From the NCBI GenBank assembly GCA_029210645.1, contig JARGFT010000005.1, positions 1 through 64,000 of the forward strand: a DNA stretch of 64,000 nucleotides, in the 5' to 3' direction. The notes under the pieces were generated by a model. It saw only the letters and a list, made by a program, of their open reading frames with translations, did no database searches and was not told where the DNA came from. Below are positions 106 through 52,329 of this stretch, piece after piece; position 1 is the stretch's first letter; every line of letters starts with the position of its first letter. The position numbers and the translations under genes were made by a program. This DNA comes from Anaerosomatales bacterium. GTDB taxonomy: Bacteria > Actinomycetota > Coriobacteriia > Anaerosomatales > SLCP01.

Positions 106-198
106 GTGAGATGCTCGAGGTCGGAGCCGAGGGCTTCATACACCACTTGACGGGACGTGGCCCAAGCGCTCTAATCACCGTGACTTTCCATCAGGTAC

Positions 199-228
199 TT
201 GAACCCCATGGGGTATCTGTATTAAAAT
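199..228 (+). promoter_or_regulatory. Sigma-70-like promoter with overlapping palindromic operator for the arsR-dsrE-tusA operon
   Basis: TTGAAC at 199-204 and TAAAAT at 223-228 are 18 bases apart. A perfect 12-base palindrome ACCCCATGGGGT (203-214) lies in the spacer, touching the -35 box. The stretch is AT-richer than its surroundings. A palindrome in the promoter of an ArsR-family gene is the usual layout for autoregulation, so this is the best candidate operator. Confidence 0.5.
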
Positions 229-314
229 CGCTTAAGCACATGCAAGGATTCGAATGTCCGAATACGAGGAGCGCCGGTACGCGCCTCATTCCTCTGGGAA
301 ACGGATGGCATGAC

Positions 315-650
315 GTGGCGAACGCGGATTTCTACTGCATGCACTCAGACCTGTGCAAGACGCTTGCGAACGCCAAGCGTCAGCAGATTCTCGGAACGCT
401 CCGCGACCGCGAGATGACGGTCGGCGAGCTCACTGAAGCGACCGGCTTCACCCAGTCGAACGTGTCGCAGCACCTCACGATTCTTCGTGGCAAGGGCATC
501 GTCCGTGCCCGCCGTCAGGGCAAATACGCCTACTACTCGATCACCAACCCCAAGATCATCCAGGCATTCGACCTCATCACAGAGGTGATGCAGGAGAGCT
601 GGCAGGTCGAGTCGAGAGCCGCAGGAGGCGATGCAGACCCTGCCGAGTGA
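315..650 (+). CDS. ArsR-family winged-helix transcriptional regulator
   Basis: This is a 111-residue helix-turn-helix repressor of the ArsR/SmtB type. The sequence KTLANAKRQQIL followed by a recognition-helix segment containing TQSNVSQHLTILR and a wing with RRQGKYAYYSI is typical. The frame is open upstream to 111, but the family normally begins just before the LCKTLA motif, so I chose the GTG at 315; ATG 339 is an alternative. There are only two cysteines, at about residues 8 and 14 before the HTH, so any thiol or metal sensing would have to use this pair. It precedes sulfur-carrier and electron-transfer genes on the same strand and probably controls them in response to a sulfur species (inference). 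Confidence 0.85.
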   Translation: MANADFYCMHSDLCKTLANAKRQQILGTLRDREMTVGELTEATGFTQSNVSQHLTILRGKGIVRARRQGKYAYYSITNPKIIQAFDLITEVMQESWQVESRAAGGDADPAE

Positions 651-699
651 GTGTGCACGTCGATCAGAGTGACCGGAGTCCGATGCCGAGGAGGCGCAG

Positions 700-1185
700 A
701 TGTCAGATCAAGAGACCAAGAAGAAGTTGTCGATGGTGGTCATGAGCGGGGATATGGACAAGCTGTTTGGTGCGTTCATCATCGCCAACGGAGCAGCTGC
801 GATGGGTCAGGACGTCACGATGTTCTTCACCTTCTGGGGCCTGCGCGCGCTCAAGAAGGACGTGAGTACCGGCACGACGCTGTTTGGAAAGATGCTGGGA
901 GTCATGTACGGCGGCGACATCTCCAAGTCCAACCCGAGCAGGTTCTCGTTCCTCGGCATGGGTCGGTGGATGTTCAAGAAGATGATGGGCAACCACAACG
1001 TATCGAGCCTGGTCGAGCTGCGCGACCTCGCGGTCACGCTCGGAGTGAAGCTGTACCCGTGCCAGATGTCGATGGACGTCATGGAGATTCCCGCCGAGAC
1101 CTTCATCGACGGCGTTCAGGACCCGGTTGGCGTGGGCTTCTTCATTGGCGAGGCCGACGAGTCCGGTACCACGCTCTTCATCTAA
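700..1185 (+). CDS. DsrE/DsrF-like sulfur-carrier family protein
   Basis: This 161-residue protein has the DsrE-fold signature: an N-terminal beta strand LSMVVMSGDMDKL, a hydrophobic helix rich in Gly and Ala, and a conserved cysteine in YPCQMSMDVM near residue 120. That cysteine is the persulfide-carrying position in DsrE2/DsrE3-type proteins. Such proteins hand sulfane sulfur to TusA, which is encoded next. A ribosome site GAGGAGG sits just before the ATG. Compared with DsrE proteins of the DsrEFH complex this one is longer and of the DsrE2/3 kind often found beside TusA and rhodaneses. The donor and final acceptor cannot be read from the sequence. Confidence 0.8.
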   Translation: MSDQETKKKLSMVVMSGDMDKLFGAFIIANGAAAMGQDVTMFFTFWGLRALKKDVSTGTTLFGKMLGVMYGGDISKSNPSRFSFLGMGRWMFKKMMGNHNVSSLVELRDLAVTLGVKLYPCQMSMDVMEIPAETFIDGVQDPVGVGFFIGEADESGTTLFI

Positions 1186-1256
1186 TGACCAATCGTCGGC
1201 CTCGGGTCGGCGCACACCGACACGCGTCCGCGTACGCTGGCGCACGAAAGGAAGCG

Positions 1257-1505
1257 ATGAACGTGTCTGACGCACCGAACGTAGATCTTGAACTTGACCT
1301 CAAAGGATTGCTCTGCCCGATGCCCATGGTGAAAGTCAGCCAGAGCATCAAAGATGTGCCGGTAGGCGGCATCATCCGTGCCGTCGCCACCGACGCCGGA
1401 GCGATGGCCGACATCCCCGCATGGGCCAAGTCCACCGGCCACGAGGTCGTGTCCGCCCTCAAGGAAGGCAGCGAGTTCGTCTTCCTGGTCAAGCGCGTCA
1501 AGTAG
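1257..1505 (+). CDS. tusA: TusA-family sulfur carrier protein
   Basis: This is an 82-residue small sulfurtransferase with the family motif LDLKGLLCPMPMVK near residue 20. The Cys of the CPxP motif carries the persulfide. The rest (RAVATDAGAMADIPAWAKSTGHEVV) is the typical beta-alpha-beta TusA core. A good ribosome site GAAAGGA precedes the ATG. It lies between a DsrE-like gene and a membrane cytochrome/iron-sulfur pair, as in clusters that deliver sulfur to heterodisulfide-reductase-like or Dsr-type complexes. That role is inferred from context; TusA proteins also act in tRNA thiolation and molybdenum-enzyme maturation. Confidence 0.9.
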   Translation: MNVSDAPNVDLELDLKGLLCPMPMVKVSQSIKDVPVGGIIRAVATDAGAMADIPAWAKSTGHEVVSALKEGSEFVFLVKRVK

Positions 1506-1524
1506 CTAAGGAGCCCCAACTGCT

Positions 1525-2244
1525 ATGGAACTCTACTTGGAAATAACGTCTATCTGGGGGGTGTACCTCGGCATAGCGGTGTTCATCGTCGGCATGGCGT
1601 GGCGCGCCTACCAGTGGGCGACGACACCGCGCTCACCCGTTGCGCTCGGGATGTTCCCCAAGCCGGCGACTGGCGCGGGACGCTTCACCAAGATGCTCAA
1701 GGACACGTTCATCGCTCCGCAGTCGGCCAAGATCGAGCCGGTCATGTGGGCGTTCGCGTTCCTGTTCCACATCGCCGCACTGGCGGCGTTCGTGGGACAC
1801 CTGCGGCTTGTCCAGGAGTTCACCCCGCTCAAAGACATGCTCGGGACTCAGGGCATGAACGAATTCGCCGCATGGGCGGGGGGTATCGCCGGCACGATCA
1901 TGATGGTCGCTGTCATCTTCTGGATCCTGCGCCGGACGTTCGGTCCGTACAAACAGCTCTCGGTGCCCGAGGACTACCTGCTGCTCTTCCTGCTCCTCGG
2001 CGTGATCATCATGGGCAACCACATGCGCTTCTTTGGAATCGTGCATTCCGAGACGTATATGGAGTGGTTCAGGAGCCTCATGGTGTTCAAGCCCGAGATT
2101 CCCGCAGAGATCCTCGCGACAACGACCGGGTGGTCGCTCGGGACGCACATGCTCTTCACGACGCTCTTTCTCATCTACTTCCCATTCAGCAAGCTCACCC
2201 ATGCCATGGGCGCTTTTGCCGCGAATATGACGAGGAGTGAGTAG
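1525..2244 (+). CDS. DsrM/NarI-like membrane b-type cytochrome subunit
   Basis: The 239-residue protein has about five or six membrane spans and histidines in or near them (FLFHIAAL, FVGHLRL, GNHMRFF, LGTHMLF, KLTHAMG) that could bind two haems b, as in NarI, HdrE and DsrM. It starts 19 bases after tusA, and the next gene begins 2 bases beyond its stop. The following gene encodes the cytoplasmic iron-sulfur partner. In characterised relatives this pair moves electrons between the quinone pool and a cytoplasmic thiol/disulfide couple. Which disulfide or sulfur carrier is used here is not known; the adjacent DsrE and TusA genes suggest one of them. Confidence 0.75.
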   Translation: MELYLEITSIWGVYLGIAVFIVGMAWRAYQWATTPRSPVALGMFPKPATGAGRFTKMLKDTFIAPQSAKIEPVMWAFAFLFHIAALAAFVGHLRLVQEFTPLKDMLGTQGMNEFAAWAGGIAGTIMMVAVIFWILRRTFGPYKQLSVPEDYLLLFLLLGVIIMGNHMRFFGIVHSETYMEWFRSLMVFKPEIPAEILATTTGWSLGTHMLFTTLFLIYFPFSKLTHAMGAFAANMTRSE

Positions 2245-2246
2245 TG

Positions 2247-3503
2247 ATGGAGAAGGTCACCGTTGATACCATGGTCGGGGTGCTCGACAAGCGTATGCAC
2301 CGCCAGCTCAAGCAGTACCTCGATATCTGTGCCCGCTGCGCGATCTGCAAAGACGCGTGCCATCAGTACGTCGGCACAGGCGACTTCAAGTACTTGCCCG
2401 CGAGACGAGCGGAGCTTATCCGGCAGGTCTACAAGAAGTACTTCACCAAGACCGGCCAGTTCGTTCCCGCACTCTACGAGGCACGCGACCCGGACGACAA
2501 CCTGCTTCAGGAGCTCTACGAGTCTACCTACGGGTGTACCGGGTGTCGCCGATGCATGTACTTCTGTCCGTTCTCGATCGACACGGCCTGGATCGCCGCG
2601 GTTGCCAAGGGCATGCTCATCGCCGCGGGCCACGGCAACGAGATGCTGGGTCAGCTCGCCGACGCCGCCATCTTCAAGGGCGATAGCCCCGAGATGTTCC
2701 ATGACGTCCTTGTCGAGGGTTTCAAGGGTATCGAGGCCGAGCTGCGCGATGAGACGGGCGATGACACGATCGAGGTGCCGGTGGACGTGAAGGGCGCCGA
2801 GATGCTCTACGTCGGCCTCGCCGGCTCGCACACCATCAAGCCCGCCGCCCGCATCTTCCATGCGGCCGGGCAGAGCTGGACACTCTCACTCTATGAGGCC
2901 GCGAACTACGGTCTGTTCTTCGGCGACGGCGAGAAGGCTAAGAAGATCGCCAAGCGCTTCATCGACGAAGCGGTCGAGCTCGGCGTGAAGGAAGTCGTGA
3001 TCACCGAGTGCGGGCACGCCTACCGGGTGGCCAAGATCTTCTACGAGTCCTGGGCGGGGGAGAAGCTTCCCTTCAAGGTCAGCCACATCCTCGATGTGAT
3101 CGACCGCTTCATGGCCGAGGGCCGCCTCGAGCTCAAGCCCGGCGCGATAGCCGAGCCGATCACCTACCATGATCCCTGCCAGGTCGGTCGTAACGGTGGC
3201 CTGTACGAGGCGCCCCGCCGAATCGTCACTGCGATCGCGGCCGACTTCCGCGATCTGACCCCCAACAGGGCCGAACAGTGGTGCTGTGGTGGGGGCGGCG
3301 GCCTGGTCGCGCTCACGGATATGAACGACATGCGTCTCAAGTCCGGCGCAAAGAAGGTGGAGCAGATTCGCGCCACCGGCGCCACGGTGATCGCGAGCCC
3401 ATGCGAGAACTGCCGACTGCAGATGGAGGACCTGGTCAACGAGTACGACCTCGATCTCAAGGTGATGGCGGTCATGGACCTCGTTGTCGAGGCCATGGAC
3501 TAG
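2247..3503 (+). CDS. DsrK/HdrD-like iron-sulfur oxidoreductase with two 4Fe-4S motifs and CCG domain
   Basis: This is a 418-residue soluble protein. Two 4Fe-4S motifs lie near residues 30-40 (CARCAICKDACH) and 96-107 (CTGCRRCMYFCP). The C-terminal half carries a cysteine-rich CCG domain: HDPCQVGRNGG, WCCGGGGG and SPCENCRLQM. This is the architecture of DsrK, HdrD and TmcB, where the CCG domain holds the special cluster that reduces heterodisulfides. An earlier half-site (ITECGHAYR) looks degenerate. GTG 2244 is possible, but ATG 2247 has better spacing to the AGGAG near 2232. With the preceding cytochrome b it forms a two-subunit membrane complex, presumably the electron-transfer end of this sulfur operon. 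Confidence 0.85.
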   Translation: MEKVTVDTMVGVLDKRMHRQLKQYLDICARCAICKDACHQYVGTGDFKYLPARRAELIRQVYKKYFTKTGQFVPALYEARDPDDNLLQELYESTYGCTGCRRCMYFCPFSIDTAWIAAVAKGMLIAAGHGNEMLGQLADAAIFKGDSPEMFHDVLVEGFKGIEAELRDETGDDTIEVPVDVKGAEMLYVGLAGSHTIKPAARIFHAAGQSWTLSLYEAANYGLFFGDGEKAKKIAKRFIDEAVELGVKEVVITECGHAYRVAKIFYESWAGEKLPFKVSHILDVIDRFMAEGRLELKPGAIAEPITYHDPCQVGRNGGLYEAPRRIVTAIAADFRDLTPNRAEQWCCGGGGGLVALTDMNDMRLKSGAKKVEQIRATGATVIASPCENCRLQMEDLVNEYDLDLKVMAVMDLVVEAMD

Positions 3504-6177: not shown

Positions 6178-6828
6178 GTGAGCATCAAGGCACTCTTCCT
6201 CAACTGCACCCTCAAGCCCTCGCCCGAGATCTCCAACACGCAGGCTCTGATCGACAAGGTGGCGGGGCTCTTCGGCGAACTCGGCATCGAGTCGGAGACG
6301 ATTCGCGTGGTCGACCACGCCGTGAAGTTCGGGATCTCGTCAGATGAAGGGGAGGGCGATGAGTGGCCGGTCATCCTCGAACGCATCAAAGCGTGCGACA
6401 TCCTCGTGATCGGGATGCCCATCTGGTTCGGGGTGCGTTCGTCGGTCGCTCAACTCGTGATGGAGCGCCTCGACGGGACCTACGCAGAGGGTGATTCGCA
6501 GACCGGACAGTATCCGCTGTACGGAAAGGTCGCGGGCGTCATCGTGACCGGGAACGAAGACGGCGCGCACGACTGCTGTGCGAACACGCTGTTCAACCTC
6601 ACCCATCTCGGTTGCGTGGTGCCGCCGAACGTCGACTGCTACTGGGTCGGGGATGCGGGCCCGGGGCCCAGCTACATCGAGGCCGGCGGCGACAAGCATC
6701 TCTACACGAATCGCACCGCCCGCTACATGGCGCAGAACCTGCTCTGGGGAGTGCACGCGCTCAGGGCGACGCCTCTCCCGACGAACCTCAAAGCACTCGA
6801 CGCGGAGGCCCGCGCGGTCAGCCGCTGA
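6178..6828 (+). CDS. NADPH-dependent FMN reductase / flavodoxin-fold protein
   Basis: The 216-residue protein opens with KALFLNCTLKPSPEISNT, the phosphate-binding loop of flavodoxin-like NAD(P)H-dependent oxidoreductases, and has PIWFGVRSSVAQLVMERLD and GVIVTGNEDGAHDCCANT at the expected flavin-contact positions. The GTG start follows GAAAGGA at a good distance. It is a soluble flavoprotein that would reduce quinones, azo compounds, metals or thiol partners. The DUF3179 gene starts 31 bases after its stop, so the two may be co-transcribed; whether the flavoprotein reduces that protein is unknown. Confidence 0.8.
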   Translation: MSIKALFLNCTLKPSPEISNTQALIDKVAGLFGELGIESETIRVVDHAVKFGISSDEGEGDEWPVILERIKACDILVIGMPIWFGVRSSVAQLVMERLDGTYAEGDSQTGQYPLYGKVAGVIVTGNEDGAHDCCANTLFNLTHLGCVVPPNVDCYWVGDAGPGPSYIEAGGDKHLYTNRTARYMAQNLLWGVHALRATPLPTNLKALDAEARAVSR

Positions 6829-6859
6829 GCATCACGACGCTCACAACCGAGGAGGTCCG

Positions 6860-7882
6860 ATGTACGCTCGAAGTGTCTCCGGCCGGTGGGGCATCAGGCG
6901 AACGAGGAAATGGGTCGTCGCGACCATGTTGCTCGGCACGGCGTTGGCCGGCGTCGGATGTGCCTCGGGCGAATCTCCCCCTGACGAGCCGGGCACCGGG
7001 GCCGGGAGCCGTGACATGGAGCGGTTCGGCCTGGCGACCGACACCTCGAAGCGCAGTGTCGAGCTCGATGAGTTCCTCTCCGGCGGGCCGCCCAAAGACG
7101 GCATCCCTGCGCTTACCGAGCCAAAGTTCGATGAACTCGGCAACTCTACCGTCCCTGACGACGTGTACGGCGTGCTGGTTGAGATCGGTGGTGACACCCG
7201 CTTCTACCCCTACAACGTCATGGTGTGGCACGAGATCGTGAACGACATCGTGGGGGGTCGCCCGATCGCGGTCACCTTTTGACCGCTGTGCGGCTCGGCC
7301 CTTGTCTTCGACCGCGAGGTCGACGGCGAGGTGCTGGAGTTCGGTGTGAGCGGCCTGCTCCACGAATCGAACCTCGTCATGTACGACCGCACGACGGAGT
7401 CCCTCTGGTCGCAATCGCGCGGTGTCGCGTTGGTGGGCGAGTACACCGGAATAGAGCTCGAGCTTGTGAGCGCTGTGTTCATGACCGTAGGGGAGCTCAG
7501 GCAGGAAATCCCCGGCGCCCTCATCCTGTCGGAGGACACGGGGCACACGCGCGACTACCGTCACAATCCGTACGCCGGATACGAAGTAAGCGAGCAGTTG
7601 ATCGCACCGGTGAGCCGGCAGGATGTGCGCTTCCCTATGAAAGAGATCATGTACGTCTTCCGCATGCCTGACGGCCCTGCGGTGGCCGTACCCCGAGATG
7701 ACTTGCCGAGCGGTGTGCACTCGACGCGCCTCGACGGGCGCGAGGTGACGTTGGAGCACGACGGAGTACGTACCACGGCGGCTGTCGACGGTGTGGATGC
7801 GCCCGTCTACCTCGAGATGTGGTTCTCGTTCGTGACGCAGCACGGCGACAACGCCGAGGTCTGGGAGCTCGCTGCGGAGTGA
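6860..7882 (+). CDS. DUF3179 domain protein with in-frame TGA at a conserved Cys: candidate selenoprotein
   Basis: From an ATG with a near-perfect ribosome site (GAGGAGGT), 341 codons run to 7882 with one in-frame TGA (7280-7282, codon 141). The N-terminus is a signal sequence with lipobox LAGVGC. Around the TGA the protein reads WHEIVNDIVGGRPIAVTF, [TGA], PLCGSALVFDR. DUF3179 proteins normally have VTYCPLCGTA here, so the TGA replaces the first Cys of a CxxC pair, making UxxC. Homology continues after it (FGVSGLLHESNLVMYDR, TESLWSQSRG) with no frame change. A SECIS-like hairpin follows at 7304-7327. The alternative is a single nonsense mutation; the absence of any other lesion argues against this. 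DUF3179 has no established reaction that I know of. Confidence 0.7.
7304..7327 (+). promoter_or_regulatory. Candidate bacterial SECIS element
   Basis: TCGACC (7308-7313) and GGTCGA (7318-7323) form six perfect pairs closed by a GCGA loop (7314-7317). After one mismatch, GTC (7304-7306) and GGC (7325-7327) add three more pairs, one of them G-U. The loop starts with G and lies 31 bases after the TGA. Published bacterial SECIS models call for a G at the start of the apical loop and roughly 16-37 bases from the UGA, so the geometry fits. Hairpins of this size also occur by chance in GC-rich DNA. Confidence 0.5.
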
Positions 7883-15319: not shown

Positions 15320-15410
15320 CGGATCACCTTCCAGAAGTGTGTGTCGCTTCGTCGCTTTGCGTAGATGAGGCGTGCGTGCCCCAGTGTGCGGTATTGGGTA
15401 CCTTCCACAC

Positions 15411-17225
15411 GTGACGAGAATCGAGGACTACGCCTTCCTGTCGGACTGTCAGTCCGCCGCACTCGTGAGCATCCACGGGTCGGTGGACTGGTTGTGCTTC
15501 CCTCGTTTCGACTCGCCTTCGGTGTTCGGCCGACTGCTGGACCCGGATGCCGGGACCTGGACGCTTGCGCCCACCGGAGAACACCGCACTGTCAGGGACT
15601 ACCTACCCGATTCGCTTGTTCTGCGCACCGAGCACGTTACACCCACGGGCACGGTCGAGGTCCTCGATGCGTTGCTCTTCGAGCCGGGTGCCCGGGAACA
15701 CGACATCGGTATGAGGGTGCCGCACGAGCTCGTTCGTGTGGTGCGAGGCGTCGTCGGCTCGGTCGAGATTGAAACGCAGGTGGAGCCGTGCCTTGAGTAC
15801 GGGCTCACCAGACCACGGATCGAACCGACCGGCTCGGGGTTCCGCGCCAGGGGAGGACCGGTGGAGCTTGTCCTCAGCGCCGACGTCGCGCTCGAGTGCA
15901 CCGAGCACGGCGCACACGTGCGGTTCGCTGTGGGGGCAGGGGAGGAGATCGGGTTCAGGCTCGCGTTCGCACGCATGTACGGACCGGGCAACGACTCGCA
16001 CTCCGGCAGCGGATCCGGGTCCGCGACAACCGGGCCGACCGGGGCTGCGGCCGCTATCGCGGACACCGAAGCGGCGTGGCGCTCCTGGGTCGACATGCAC
16101 TCGGCGTACGAAGGCCCCTACGCGGATAGCGTCCGCCGCAGCGCACTCATCCTGCAGGGCCTCACCTACCAACCGTCGGGCGCGCTCGTGGCTGCAGCGA
16201 CTACCTCGCTTCCGGAACGCGTTGGGGGCGAGTGGAACTGGGACTACCGCTACACCTGGCTCCGGGACGCCAGCCTCACCCTCAACGCGCGGTGGGTCTC
16301 CTCCTGTCCGCACGAACCGTGGCGGTTCTTCCGCTGGATCGAGAACGCGGGATCGCGAACGGGTGAGAGCCCGCTGCAGATCATGTACGACGTCGAAGGG
16401 GGAGCCGATCTCACCGAGCATACCCTCGACCATCTCCGCGGGTTCGCCGACAGCCGTCCGGTGCGCGTCGGCAACGACGCATGGACGCAGACGCAGCTCG
16501 ATGTTGCCGGAGAGATACTGGATGCCGCCTTTCTCATGCGGCACCAGATGGGCAAGCTCTCCGCTCCGACCCGGGCGATGTTGGTCCGGCTCGCGGACGA
16601 TGCCGCCGCGCGGTGGCGCGAGCCCGATGCGGGCATGTGGGAGTCGCGTGACATTCCCCGCCACTACGTCTCCTCGAAGGTGATGAGCTGGGTCGCGCTC
16701 GACCGCGCCGTACTCATGGCGGACTTGCTGGATGCTGAGTCCGGCCTGGTCGAAGCGTGGGTCGCGGAGCGCGATGCGGTTCGTGAGGCAGTGCTGCGGG
16801 ACGGCTGGAGCGAGGAGGCCGGAGCGTACGGCGGCGCGTTCGGCTCGAGCCACCTCGACGCATCGGTACTGCTCATGCCGATCGTCGGATTCCTGCCGGC
16901 CGACGACGAACGTATGCTCGCGACCATCCACGCGATCGACGAGCGACTCGGCAGGGGCGGGCTCGTGCGTCGCTGGGCCGAGGAGCCCAATGCGTTTCTC
17001 ATCTGCAGCTACTGGCTCATCCAGTGTCTCGCGCTTGCGGGTGAACGCGAGCGTGCCGAGGAGTACTTCGAAGCCGTCACCGCTCACGCCAACGACGTGG
17101 GGCTGCTCGCGGAGATGGTCGACATGGGCACAGGCGATCTGCTCGGCAACACGCCGCAGGCGTTCTCGCACATCGGGCTCATCAACTCGGCATGGACACT
17201 GTCCGGCAACGGGCTGCCGGAGTGA
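15411..17225 (+). CDS. Glycoside hydrolase family 15 protein (glucoamylase or trehalase-like)
   Basis: This 604-residue cytoplasmic protein starts TRIEDYAFLSDCQSAALV and GSVDWLCFPRFDSPS, the N-terminal beta-sandwich signature of bacterial GH15 proteins. The (alpha/alpha)6 barrel includes GGEWNWDYRYTWLRDAS and EGAYGGAFGSS. I chose GTG 15411 because the family begins at this TRIEDY motif; an upstream GTG at 15372 adds 13 unrelated residues. There is no signal peptide. It would release glucose from alpha-glucans or trehalose, and glucokinase is encoded divergently beside it. Its stop codon abuts the stop of the next, convergent gene. Confidence 0.88.
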   Translation: MTRIEDYAFLSDCQSAALVSIHGSVDWLCFPRFDSPSVFGRLLDPDAGTWTLAPTGEHRTVRDYLPDSLVLRTEHVTPTGTVEVLDALLFEPGAREHDIGMRVPHELVRVVRGVVGSVEIETQVEPCLEYGLTRPRIEPTGSGFRARGGPVELVLSADVALECTEHGAHVRFAVGAGEEIGFRLAFARMYGPGNDSHSGSGSGSATTGPTGAAAAIADTEAAWRSWVDMHSAYEGPYADSVRRSALILQGLTYQPSGALVAAATTSLPERVGGEWNWDYRYTWLRDASLTLNARWVSSCPHEPWRFFRWIENAGSRTGESPLQIMYDVEGGADLTEHTLDHLRGFADSRPVRVGNDAWTQTQLDVAGEILDAAFLMRHQMGKLSAPTRAMLVRLADDAAARWREPDAGMWESRDIPRHYVSSKVMSWVALDRAVLMADLLDAESGLVEAWVAERDAVREAVLRDGWSEEAGAYGGAFGSSHLDASVLLMPIVGFLPADDERMLATIHAIDERLGRGGLVRRWAEEPNAFLICSYWLIQCLALAGERERAEEYFEAVTAHANDVGLLAEMVDMGTGDLLGNTPQAFSHIGLINSAWTLSGNGLPE

Positions 17226-48470: not shown

Positions 48471-49907
48471 ATGAAGCGAACAGCGTTCGTCCTGGTGTTG
48501 GCGCTGGCATTGCTGGTGGTGCTGTCAACGACCGCCTATGCCGAGCACCGGTCATCCAAGTACTCGACCTGGTCTCAGAGTGCCGGGACGAACGAATTGG
48601 TTGCCGTGCCGCATAGTGGCTACACCACGACGACGGTGAAGTGCAACGTGTGTCACGCGGTGCACAACGCCGCGGTCATGGGCCAGTGGATCCAGAACCA
48701 GCCTGATGGCGCATGGATCCTCTCTTCGGAGCGCGCTCCCGCGCAGATGATGCTCCGTTCCAACGTGGCCGAAGCGTGCTTGTACTGTCACGTCGACACC
48801 GGCATCGCCGGTGTGCGTTTGTGGAACGGCAACTCGCTCAACTGGGGCCGGGACCCGGTCACCGGTGAGGAGCGTCCGTTCGACAGCGGGTATGGCCATG
48901 GTCACACCGGATGCACGAACTGCCATGCCGTGCACGGTGCACGAGCATTCAAGGGTGACGCAGAGCGCAAGATCCTGCGCTACGACGCGACAAACAACCT
49001 GACGAAGAGCTCGCATCTGGGCGACCCTGACGGAGACGGTCCGATTCCGCACGATTCGTCCGAGTACGACATCGGGATCAACGATGCCGTACCCGGCAAT
49101 GTCGCCAACCACACGTACACGGACACGGCCACGGGCGTGTCGACCCTCGTGGGTATCCAGGACGAGATCTTCACGCAGGATCCGACCGGCGTGCTTGTCG
49201 ATCCCCTCAACAAGGCCCAGTTCGCGAGCCTTGCGGGGGTCATCGAGGGATATGGCGCGATCAACGACGCAGCGGGCGCCGACATGAAGGATCTTCAGGT
49301 GGGCGCGTTCTGCACGATGTGCCATGCCAACATCTACACGTCCGACTCGTACCAGGTCATCAATCCCGACCAGGATATGTTCCTGGCAGGTGGCTCGTTC
49401 GGCTGGTGGTACGACATCGAGGGCTTCGAGTATCAGAGTGGGTTTTACAAGAGCAAGGGCCACCCGGTGGCCAGGGCGACGAATGATTTCGCCGCTTCCG
49501 GCAGCACGATCGGAACCGGGAAGACCGTCGCGTGGTCCGGCGCGGAGACCTGCCGTAGATGCCACGATGCGGGACGAGACGATTCCCCTCCGGGTATCGT
49601 GTACTCGTCCTTCCCGCATGTGACCCCGGGCTACTACAAGTTCGTGGGCGCGGGAGCGGACGCAATGTCGTACGCAGTCTCGGGCAACAAGCAGCAGGAC
49701 ATGGTCGGCGACAGCACCGGTTGGCTGGCTGGTACCGAGTTCGTCGACGCAGAACTTGCTGCGGATGGATACATGCTCTATCCGGGTCAGAACTACAAGA
49801 GCGACGACCCGGCCGTACCGGGTCAGACCGATCACATCGGTGTCGACGGCCAGTGCCTGAAGTGTCACCGGTCGGGTTCCGGCGCCGGAGTAGGTCTGAC
49901 GTACTAG
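48471..49907 (+). CDS. Secreted hexaheme c-type cytochrome, copy 2
   Basis: This 478-residue paralogue of the preceding gene has the same plan: signal peptide ending TAYA, then CNVCH, CLYCH, CTNCH, CTMCH, CRRCH and CLKCH at matching positions, with the same extra histidines and DPDGDG. By eye about two-thirds of residues agree. Differences cluster between the third and fourth motifs and between the fifth and sixth. Both end with VGLTY. The ribosome site is AGGGAGAGGAGG. A tandem pair like this recalls omcS/omcT in Geobacter, but orthology is not claimed. Confidence 0.92.
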   Translation: MKRTAFVLVLALALLVVLSTTAYAEHRSSKYSTWSQSAGTNELVAVPHSGYTTTTVKCNVCHAVHNAAVMGQWIQNQPDGAWILSSERAPAQMMLRSNVAEACLYCHVDTGIAGVRLWNGNSLNWGRDPVTGEERPFDSGYGHGHTGCTNCHAVHGARAFKGDAERKILRYDATNNLTKSSHLGDPDGDGPIPHDSSEYDIGINDAVPGNVANHTYTDTATGVSTLVGIQDEIFTQDPTGVLVDPLNKAQFASLAGVIEGYGAINDAAGADMKDLQVGAFCTMCHANIYTSDSYQVINPDQDMFLAGGSFGWWYDIEGFEYQSGFYKSKGHPVARATNDFAASGSTIGTGKTVAWSGAETCRRCHDAGRDDSPPGIVYSSFPHVTPGYYKFVGAGADAMSYAVSGNKQQDMVGDSTGWLAGTEFVDAELAADGYMLYPGQNYKSDDPAVPGQTDHIGVDGQCLKCHRSGSGAGVGLTY

Positions 49908-49957
49908 TGAGCCGCATGCCCTTGCCAGGTATCCACAGGGGCTGGAAGGTTTGCGGA

Positions 49958-49991
49958 GGCAGGGGCCGGTCCAACCGGATCGGCCCCTGCC
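49958..49991 (+). terminator. Hairpin after the second hexaheme gene
   Basis: GGCAGGGGCCG (49958-49968) pairs with CGGCCCCTGCC (49981-49991). The 12-base loop gtccaaccggat is nearly the same as gtcggaacggat in the hairpin at 48325, so both stem and loop are shared between the two genes' 3' regions. Confidence 0.65.
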
Positions 49992-50160
49992 GTGCTGCTC
50001 TACGGGCGTGACGGCCCCTCGCGTGTCGGCTGCGGCCGGAGCGCACGGCTGCTATGTCTCGGCAGGACAGCGCCGTATCATGGAAGTAGTATGGAAGCAC
50101 CCGTGGGCGCTTTTCCCGGAGACTCGATGGGCGCCTGAGGAGAGAGAGGGCACTCGATCA

Positions 50161-50973
50161 ATGCACGATGTCAGCGTGCGTACCGGAACCGGCATGGCGG
50201 AACCCTCCAGCGCGACATACGGGTCCGGCATATACCGCTTCACGCCTGTGTTGATCACGGGTGTTCTCGTCACAATCGTCCTGATACTCGCCGTCATCCT
50301 CTACGGGCTGCTGGGAGGCGTCATCAATCCGCCAGCTCCTCGTACATACCCGGAGTACCTGCTCGTCCGCGCTCAGACTATGGTAGGAGAGGAGCCTGGC
50401 AACGGACAGTACTGGGCCGACTACGTTGACATCATGATCCTCCGCGGCAACTACCGAGAGGCGGAGGACCTGATCGTGCAAGCTCGGGAGGCGGTCGGCG
50501 ACAGCGCGACAATCCTACTCGTGAACAACGCCGAACTCCGGCTTCTCCTGGCCCAGGGAGTGTATGAGGAAGTGCTCGAGCGAGGAGAAGCCTACCTCGA
50601 GCAGGACGCCGAGATGCTCAAGAGCCAGCTTGCCGACTATGCAGCGCGCGGCATCACCGTGCCGTCCACATTCAATAAGCAGAGAGCAGCGGTGACTATC
50701 GAGACGCTGCTCGTGCGCGCCCGGGCAGCGGTAGAACTCAAGGAGTACGAGACTGCACTCGACGACTTGAATGCGGCGCTGGACTGGGATCCTCTGGCGG
50801 CGGACATCCGCATCTTCAGGGGCAACGTCGGTCTGCTCGAGGGTGGTGCCGAGTCGCTCGAGCGCGCGAAGGAGGACTTCACCTTCGCACTCCAGTTCCT
50901 GCCCGATTCCGACGCGGCACGGGCCGGCCTCGCCGAGCTGGAACGGCGGCTTGAGGAGGAGGTCGCACCCTGA
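50161..50973 (+). CDS. Membrane-anchored TPR-repeat protein
   Basis: This 270-residue protein has one membrane span near residues 30-52 (VLITGVLVTIVLILAVILYGL). A helical C-terminal domain follows with tetratricopeptide-like repeats (YWADYVDIMILRGNYREAEDLIVQA, TALDDLNAALDWDPLAADI). The C-domain would be outside the membrane. It lies in the cytochrome block and could help cytochrome export, assembly or haem loading; this is inference from position. The start is not certain: ATG 50161 has only a distant purine-rich site. Confidence 0.7.
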   Translation: MHDVSVRTGTGMAEPSSATYGSGIYRFTPVLITGVLVTIVLILAVILYGLLGGVINPPAPRTYPEYLLVRAQTMVGEEPGNGQYWADYVDIMILRGNYREAEDLIVQAREAVGDSATILLVNNAELRLLLAQGVYEEVLERGEAYLEQDAEMLKSQLADYAARGITVPSTFNKQRAAVTIETLLVRARAAVELKEYETALDDLNAALDWDPLAADIRIFRGNVGLLEGGAESLERAKEDFTFALQFLPDSDAARAGLAELERRLEEEVAP

Positions 50974-51039
50974 TGGGTGTCGGCTCAGAGCCACTCCGAG
51001 ACATGGAGAGATCACGTGATAGGAGGGAAGGACGACCAG

Positions 51040-52329
51040 ATGAGACACGATGGTGAGGATCCGACCGACGTGGCCGAAGGACAGTCTCCCCACGAGGAGC
51101 CGGTCTATACAGAGACGATCGTCGAGTACGTCGACAACAGACAGCGCAAGATCGTGTTCGGAGCCCTCATCGTCGTGCTTGGGTTACTCATCCTTCTCCT
51201 GGCGGGGTCGTCGTATTACGTCTTGTACTGGACGCAGGGCGGCTCGGGCGCTCCTGCCGCAGGGGATCTCCCGGAGGGTCTGGAGTGGGTCCGTTCGATC
51301 TACGGGTGGGGAGAGACAGCGGACACGTCCCTCAGTTCGCCGAGTGACGTCGCTATCGCACCTGACGGCTCTATATGGGTCATATCGGCAGCCCAGATGG
51401 TGGTGGGCTTCAATCCCGACGGCACGCTGAAGCAGGTCATCCATCCCGAGCGCGGCTTCGAGCGAGGACAGGTCGATACTCTCGAAGGCATCACCGTCGG
51501 TCCTGATGGTGTCATCTACGTCACCGATCAGGGCAAGGGATCCATCGAGAGGTTCGAGCAGGACGGAACCTGGATCGGACAGTGGCCGGCGAACTTGCCG
51601 ATCGAGATCACGTCTGACGGCAGCGATCGGCTTGGGGTCACCGGTGAGGGCGGCTTCGGTGTCCTGCGCGTCCTCGGTGACACCGCCGAGATCCTGGGGA
51701 GTTGGGGCCGGAGGGGCACTGGAGAGACCGAGTTCGACCTACCGCACGGCGTCGCGTTTGGCGCAGACGGGAAGGTCTTCGTCTCGGACACGCACAACGC
51801 GAGGGTCAAGGCGCTCGATCAGAACGGGGAGGTCCTTTGGATCACCGAGGGGACTCCCCGACGGTTCAGCGAGTCGATGGAGGCGACCACCACCTCGGTG
51901 TTCCAGCTGCCGTCCGGCATGACGGTTGACGCGAGCGGTCGAGTGGTCGTCGTGGACCCGTTCGGCTTCAACATCACGGTACTGGACTCCGAGACGGGAT
52001 CCACCATAGGCCAGTACGGCGACTACGGTGTGACCGACGGCCTGTTCGCGTATCCCACCGGCATCGACTACGACGAGGACCGGGACTGGTTCGCTGTCGC
52101 GGACACGGCGAACAACCGCGTGCAAGTCGTCCGCATCCCGGGCAGTGGCGGGTCGCCGCTTGCGGCGCTGAGGCGCAACCTCGTCGGCCCGGTCTGGGTG
52201 TGCTGCATCCCCCTGTTCCTCCTGCTGATACTGCTGGTTGCGGCCGTGCTTCGGCGACGTGCCAGGGGGCGACAGGACGACGAGCGTGCGGGTGAGGGAG
52301 CGGCAGCCGATGTGATCGAGGCCGGCTGA
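51040..52329 (+). CDS. NHL beta-propeller protein tethered by membrane spans at both ends
   Basis: The 429-residue product has a span near residues 37-60 (KIVFGALIVVLGLLILLLAG), a six-bladed NHL-type propeller (repeats such as SPSDVAIAPDGSIWVIS, LPHGVAFGADGKVFVSDTHNARV, LPSGMTVDASGRVVVVDPF), and a second span near the C-terminus (GPVWVCCIPLFLLLILLV). Both termini are thus cytoplasmic and the propeller external. Propeller proteins often accompany multihaem cytochromes in my recollection and may serve as binding platforms. ATG 51040 follows AGGAGGGAAGG. Confidence 0.75.
   Translation: MRHDGEDPTDVAEGQSPHEEPVYTETIVEYVDNRQRKIVFGALIVVLGLLILLLAGSSYYVLYWTQGGSGAPAAGDLPEGLEWVRSIYGWGETADTSLSSPSDVAIAPDGSIWVISAAQMVVGFNPDGTLKQVIHPERGFERGQVDTLEGITVGPDGVIYVTDQGKGSIERFEQDGTWIGQWPANLPIEITSDGSDRLGVTGEGGFGVLRVLGDTAEILGSWGRRGTGETEFDLPHGVAFGADGKVFVSDTHNARVKALDQNGEVLWITEGTPRRFSESMEATTTSVFQLPSGMTVDASGRVVVVDPFGFNITVLDSETGSTIGQYGDYGVTDGLFAYPTGIDYDEDRDWFAVADTANNRVQVVRIPGSGGSPLAALRRNLVGPVWVCCIPLFLLLILLVAAVLRRRARGRQDDERAGEGAAADVIEAG

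Follow-up and report, generated by a model that had tools for sequence, protein, structure and literature searches.

Selenocysteine (Sec)-containing members of the DUF3179 family are on record, as the family (pfam11376, UxxC/T) is listed in the prokaryotic selenoprotein tables of two reviews, where the entry is attributed to the 2007 work of Zhang and Gladyshev on the Olavius algarvensis deltaproteobacterial symbiont (PMC9312934, PMC13188914). MBW1804167.1 and MDJ0986319.1 are published Sec-type DUF3179 sequences. The original prediction for the DNA studied here, a 64,000-nucleotide stretch of an Anaerosomatales genome that we refer to as the window, had left it as a question whether Sec-type DUF3179 members were known, and these tables answer that they are. 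The novelty of the window gene is therefore lower. Compared by table entry, the published selenoprotein and the window gene share the Pfam family and a Sec in a UxxC motif, but the published one comes from a deltaproteobacterial symbiont, whereas the window gene lies in an actinobacterial (Coriobacteriia) genome. We found no description of actinobacterial Sec-type DUF3179 members in the literature searched, whose coverage was partial and in which the family is named by only three papers. A second actinobacterial Sec group, described below, does not form one clade with the window gene.

The gene and the elements that define its reading are as follows.

6849 to 6854 (give or take a base or two), plus strand: Shine-Dalgarno sequence AGGAGG (CCGAGGAGGTCCGATG), just 5' of the ATG at 6860, read from the sequence.
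6860 to 7882, plus strand: DUF3179 (PF11376) gene, 340-residue product with one in-frame UGA, predicted exported lipoprotein.
7280 to 7282, plus strand: the UGA, read as Sec141, first residue of the UPLC motif; Cys or Sec occupies the site in all readable homologues.
7289 to 7291, plus strand: Cys144, second of the UxxC pair and predicted resolving cysteine; Cys in 55 of 56 sequences and Thr in the remaining one.

We consider it very probable that this gene encodes a selenoprotein in which the UGA is read as Sec141, a reading supported by the Sec machinery of the genome, the conservation of the UGA, the hairpin that follows it and selection on the downstream codons. The frame runs from the ATG at 6860 to a TGA stop codon at 7880–7882, and its sole internal TGA (context ...PIAVTF-TGA-PLCGSALVF) falls on the first Cys of the otherwise invariant CPLC motif. 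With this TGA translated as Cys, the Pfam DUF3179 profile matches residues 79–307 with no frameshift (E = 8.9e-72, 242 bits against a cut-off of 27). Translation and the Pfam match thus bear out the claim that a single in-frame TGA stands at the first Cys of CPLC in an otherwise intact gene. Wherever in the window a TGA connects two open stretches, each at least 30 codons long, codon usage was scored on either side; the TGA at 7280–7282 clearly came out on top (0.36 versus 0.19 for the runner-up).

The runner-up, TGA 50971 on the plus strand, was considered as a further Sec gene in the window and rejected, having been read by eye as the point where two ordinary genes adjoin. Within 49900–52329 (plus strand) it looks like the junction of a tetratricopeptide-like gene with an NHL-repeat-like gene in the same frame. 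Elsewhere in the window, a row of plus-strand genes at 111–3503 comprises an ArsR-type regulator, DsrE_2, a NarI-like membrane subunit and an HdrD-like CCG/Fe-S protein, with the overlapping ORF 651–1505 ending in a TusA-like reading, and looks like a sulfur-transfer/heterodisulfide reductase-type operon.

Two further features bear on the location and possible partners of the product.

6178 to 6828, plus strand: FMN_red (PF03358) flavodoxin-like reductase gene (Pfam E = 6.8e-14), 31 nt upstream of the DUF3179 gene.
6860 to 6967, plus strand: putative N-terminal signal ending in lipobox-like AGVGC (Cys34), identified in the sequence by eye.

AGVGC is presumably related to the PROSITE lipobox, and the N-termini of the orthologues carry LGGC, AGSC and LSGC at the same place, which by eye are also lipoprotein-signal-like. 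The product would thus be a membrane-anchored extracytoplasmic DUF3179 lipoprotein. As the FMN_red gene adjoins the UGA gene in all four genomes with the UGA (tblastn listing), the arrangement suggests an operon in which the two genes are probably cotranscribed. Parts of the DUF3179 gene carry the names of overlapping ORFs in that listing, from which the FMN_red neighbourhood alone was used. Since no export signal is obvious to the eye in the FMN_red gene, direct electron transfer between its product and the DUF3179 protein is doubtful.

Among 56 aligned sequences, the invariant residues include Trp123, His124, Glu125, Cys/Sec141, Pro142, Leu143, Gln185 and Arg231. Since residue 141 varies only to Sec, while residue 144 can vary, 141 is more likely to be the nucleophile, and 144 the resolving residue. 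An AlphaFold model built from the 56 sequences has a mean pLDDT of 89.2 and a pTM of 0.83. DUF3179 has no solved sequence relative in the PDB, and a Foldseek search with the model returned no confident PDB structural match; the case for the redox role therefore comes from the motif and from the part that Sec usually plays. NCBIfam gave nothing over its cut-off, its only match lying below threshold and being confined to the N-terminal region. In BFVD, the predicted structure of A0A1V0SD44, an uncharacterised protein from Indivirus ILV1 (a giant virus), resembles DUF3179 (E = 1.1e-10, target TM 0.67).

We infer Sec insertion, export and redox function for the protein along the following lines. 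Ribosomes would arrive at the UGA, where SelB with Sec-tRNA-Sec(UCA) would bind an mRNA hairpin with its loop 31 nt downstream; Sec141 would be inserted, and translation would then run on to the TGA at 7880. In the product, Sec141 replaces the invariant Cys and would most likely be the redox nucleophile, resolved by Cys144 through a selenenylsulfide, in a predicted site that includes the invariant His124, Glu125, Gln185 and Arg231. The product may accordingly be described as an exported, membrane-anchored selenol/thiol oxidoreductase, with the odds moderately in favour of the redox role.

A different use of the same residues is conceivable, in which Sec is indeed inserted but Sec141 and Cys144, together with His124, bind a metal in a distant Rieske-like fold whose CPxH box II has become UPLC. 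We regard this as unlikely. The spacing of 17 between His124 and Sec141 equals that between the box I His and the box II Cys in 31 of 31 Rieske domains, and Foldseek matched the model (pLDDT 89) to Rieske ferredoxins with a probability of 0.87 but an E-value of only 0.28 (5bok, 77 columns, target TM 0.53). Rieske [2Fe-2S] domains are recognised by their CxH and CPxH boxes and by a profile match. At the level of sequence, hhalign did not match DUF3179 to 31 Rieske sequences (E = 0.12, away from the motif), and the Pfam Rieske profile (PF00355) matches no DUF3179 member. In addition, the second Sec group has NRREM or NVREM in place of WHEI and so lacks the equivalent of His124. That the whole DUF3179 family is a remote, cluster-less Rieske-like fold whose UPLC/CPLC site and His124 bind a metal or cofactor seems to us less likely still. 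On this last reading, Sec141 would provide a selenium ligand, and the proteins would form a class of exported metalloselenoproteins that has gone unrecognised.

The window's own genome (G000), 1.98 Mb in 46 contigs with an estimated completeness of 100%, carries one cluster in the order tRNA-Sec (72 bits), selB (390 bits), selA (600 bits) and selD (374 bits) on a single contig (C22, 78744–83849); all four exceed the curated cut-offs. ARAGORN likewise identified a tRNA-SeC with the anticodon tca (UCA). The genome was thus found to hold together all of the genes that the original prediction had named as its first check, including selB and selC, whose absence would have spoken against it. SelD of this genome is itself a selenoprotein (AGUAAKW; locus L018, C22:82932–83849, minus strand), and the UGA in its gene is followed 17 nt downstream by a hairpin with a GGA loop. 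The genome therefore holds at least one further gene in which UGA is expected to be decoded as Sec; it relies on the same Sec machinery as the DUF3179 gene, but its product belongs to an unrelated protein family.

DUF3179 genes occur in 6 of the 69 genomes sampled from the order. At the codon in question, four have TGA (G000, G037, G061 and G133) and two have TGC (G040 and G097). The proteins of the other three TGA genomes are 93% (G037), 70% (G061) and 72% (G133) identical to that of the window, while the TGC relatives are more distant (G040, HGW-Actinobacteria-7, 46%; G097, 34%). These two are Cys-type (CPLC) members that share the domain and the order with the window gene; in Cys-type genes TGC or TGT replaces the TGA. 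No other lesions were found in the four UGA genes, and in pairwise comparisons among them dN/dS 3' of the UGA was 0.12–0.37, similar to the 5' part, which indicates purifying selection. A frame constrained after the UGA is not the pattern of a dead C-terminus.

These data bear directly on whether the TGA could have come from a sequencing error or from a nonsense mutation, the Cys-type gene then being on its way to a pseudogene. A TGC-to-TGA conversion is a single base change, and Cys-type homologues are present in the same order; yet the same TGA stands in four separately assembled genomes, selection persists past it in a gene with no other lesion, and the genome has the complete Sec machinery. 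We therefore hold this explanation to be highly improbable. The original prediction had named close relatives with TGC and no conserved hairpin, together with other lesions in the gene, as grounds against the Sec reading; the three close relatives instead have TGA, with the hairpin and no other damage. Some bacterial codes assign UGA to Trp or Gly, but decoding of this UGA as another amino acid, through a variant code or leaky readthrough, is just as improbable, since TGA is an ordinary stop codon here (it ends the DUF3179 and FMN_red genes as well as the one at 15372–17225), the only internal TGA of the DUF3179 gene falls at the invariant Cys, and the genome has tRNA-Sec and SelB.

In a set of contig loci (n = 80), the site was Cys at 77 and TGA at one (L028), which by its identical site sequence is the G133 locus (Coriobacteriia bacterium CSSed162cmB_508). 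Among 116 homologues the motif was CxxC in 107, UxxC in 8 and CxxT in 1. SelB was not found in G133 (85% complete), nor was a clear tRNA-Sec in G133 or G061; these missing matches are likely assembly gaps.

Downstream of the UGA in the window gene, the transcript can form a hairpin with these parts.

7295 to 7337, plus strand: bSECIS-like hairpin, from the fold, the model test and its presence in three UGA orthologues.
7308 to 7313 and 7318 to 7323, plus strand: upper stem UCGACC/GGUCGA, 6 bp.
7314 to 7317, plus strand: apical loop GCGA, starting 31 nt after the UGA; the lower stem has a U-C mismatch.

The 56-nt segment 7280–7335 folds with -31.1 kcal/mol (z = -3.3 versus dinucleotide shuffles). 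The bSECIS model specifies a loop of 3–9 nt with a G within its first two positions, an upper stem of 4–16 bp, a distance of 16–37 nt from the UGA and a minimum free energy of at most -7.5 kcal/mol (PMC13188914). With its GCGA loop, 6-bp stem and 31-nt distance, the window hairpin satisfies all of these constraints, so that both the fold and the bSECIS-like search agree with the proposed hairpin with a G-first loop 31 bases after the TGA. The bare model is permissive in GC-rich DNA and is passed by 934 of the 1625 TGA triplets on both strands of the window; passing it is therefore weak evidence alone. Equal hairpin stability, in contrast, was reached at only 7 of the 1625 in the same kind of search.

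The UGA orthologues in G037, G061 and G133 also comply with the bSECIS model (loops GCGA, CGCACC and GGGU, at 30–31 nt). Measured against synonymous-codon shuffles, z was -2.4, -3.1, -1.1 and -2.3 for G000, G037, G061 and G133, the G061 value being modest, versus +0.8 and +2.2 for the Cys genes of G040 and G097, whose hairpins are thus no more stable than their codons alone give. In three other Cys homologues (L034, L035 and L038) the folds at this place are equally stable, and no double-compensated pair was found among the four sequences of the window-group hairpin. We therefore take the hairpin as good supporting evidence for the Sec reading, short of proof.

Across the phylum, 396 genomes were sampled and DUF3179 was found in 74. 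Four of these, from four other families (G560, G734, G451 and G478; loci L138–L141), have a TGA exactly at UPLC, and a related gene in G440 has Cys at the site; SelB and tRNA-Sec scored over cut-off in all five. The hairpin of this second group differs from that of the window group (CGGCGAUG-GUC-CAUCGCCG, loop 21 nt after the UGA), and in G478 it contains two double-compensated pairs at which the amino acids change (Ala to Gly, Arg to Ser) while the stem is kept.

The tree calls for a minimum of two Cys–Sec changes. A single Sec clade was rejected by an AU test (38 rows), with a log-likelihood 198.5 lower (p-AU = 5.7e-144). This one-clade hypothesis was framed post hoc, after both groups had been seen, and LG+G4 is a simple model; the margin is nevertheless large. 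Sec and Cys have therefore interchanged at least twice. Since exchange of an invariant Cys and Sec in lineages separated in the tree is good evidence that the chemistry takes place at this residue, the UPLC/CPLC site offers a testable active site for a family that is widespread in the phylum. Standard annotation would truncate the window's DUF3179 protein at residue 140 or label its gene a pseudogene.
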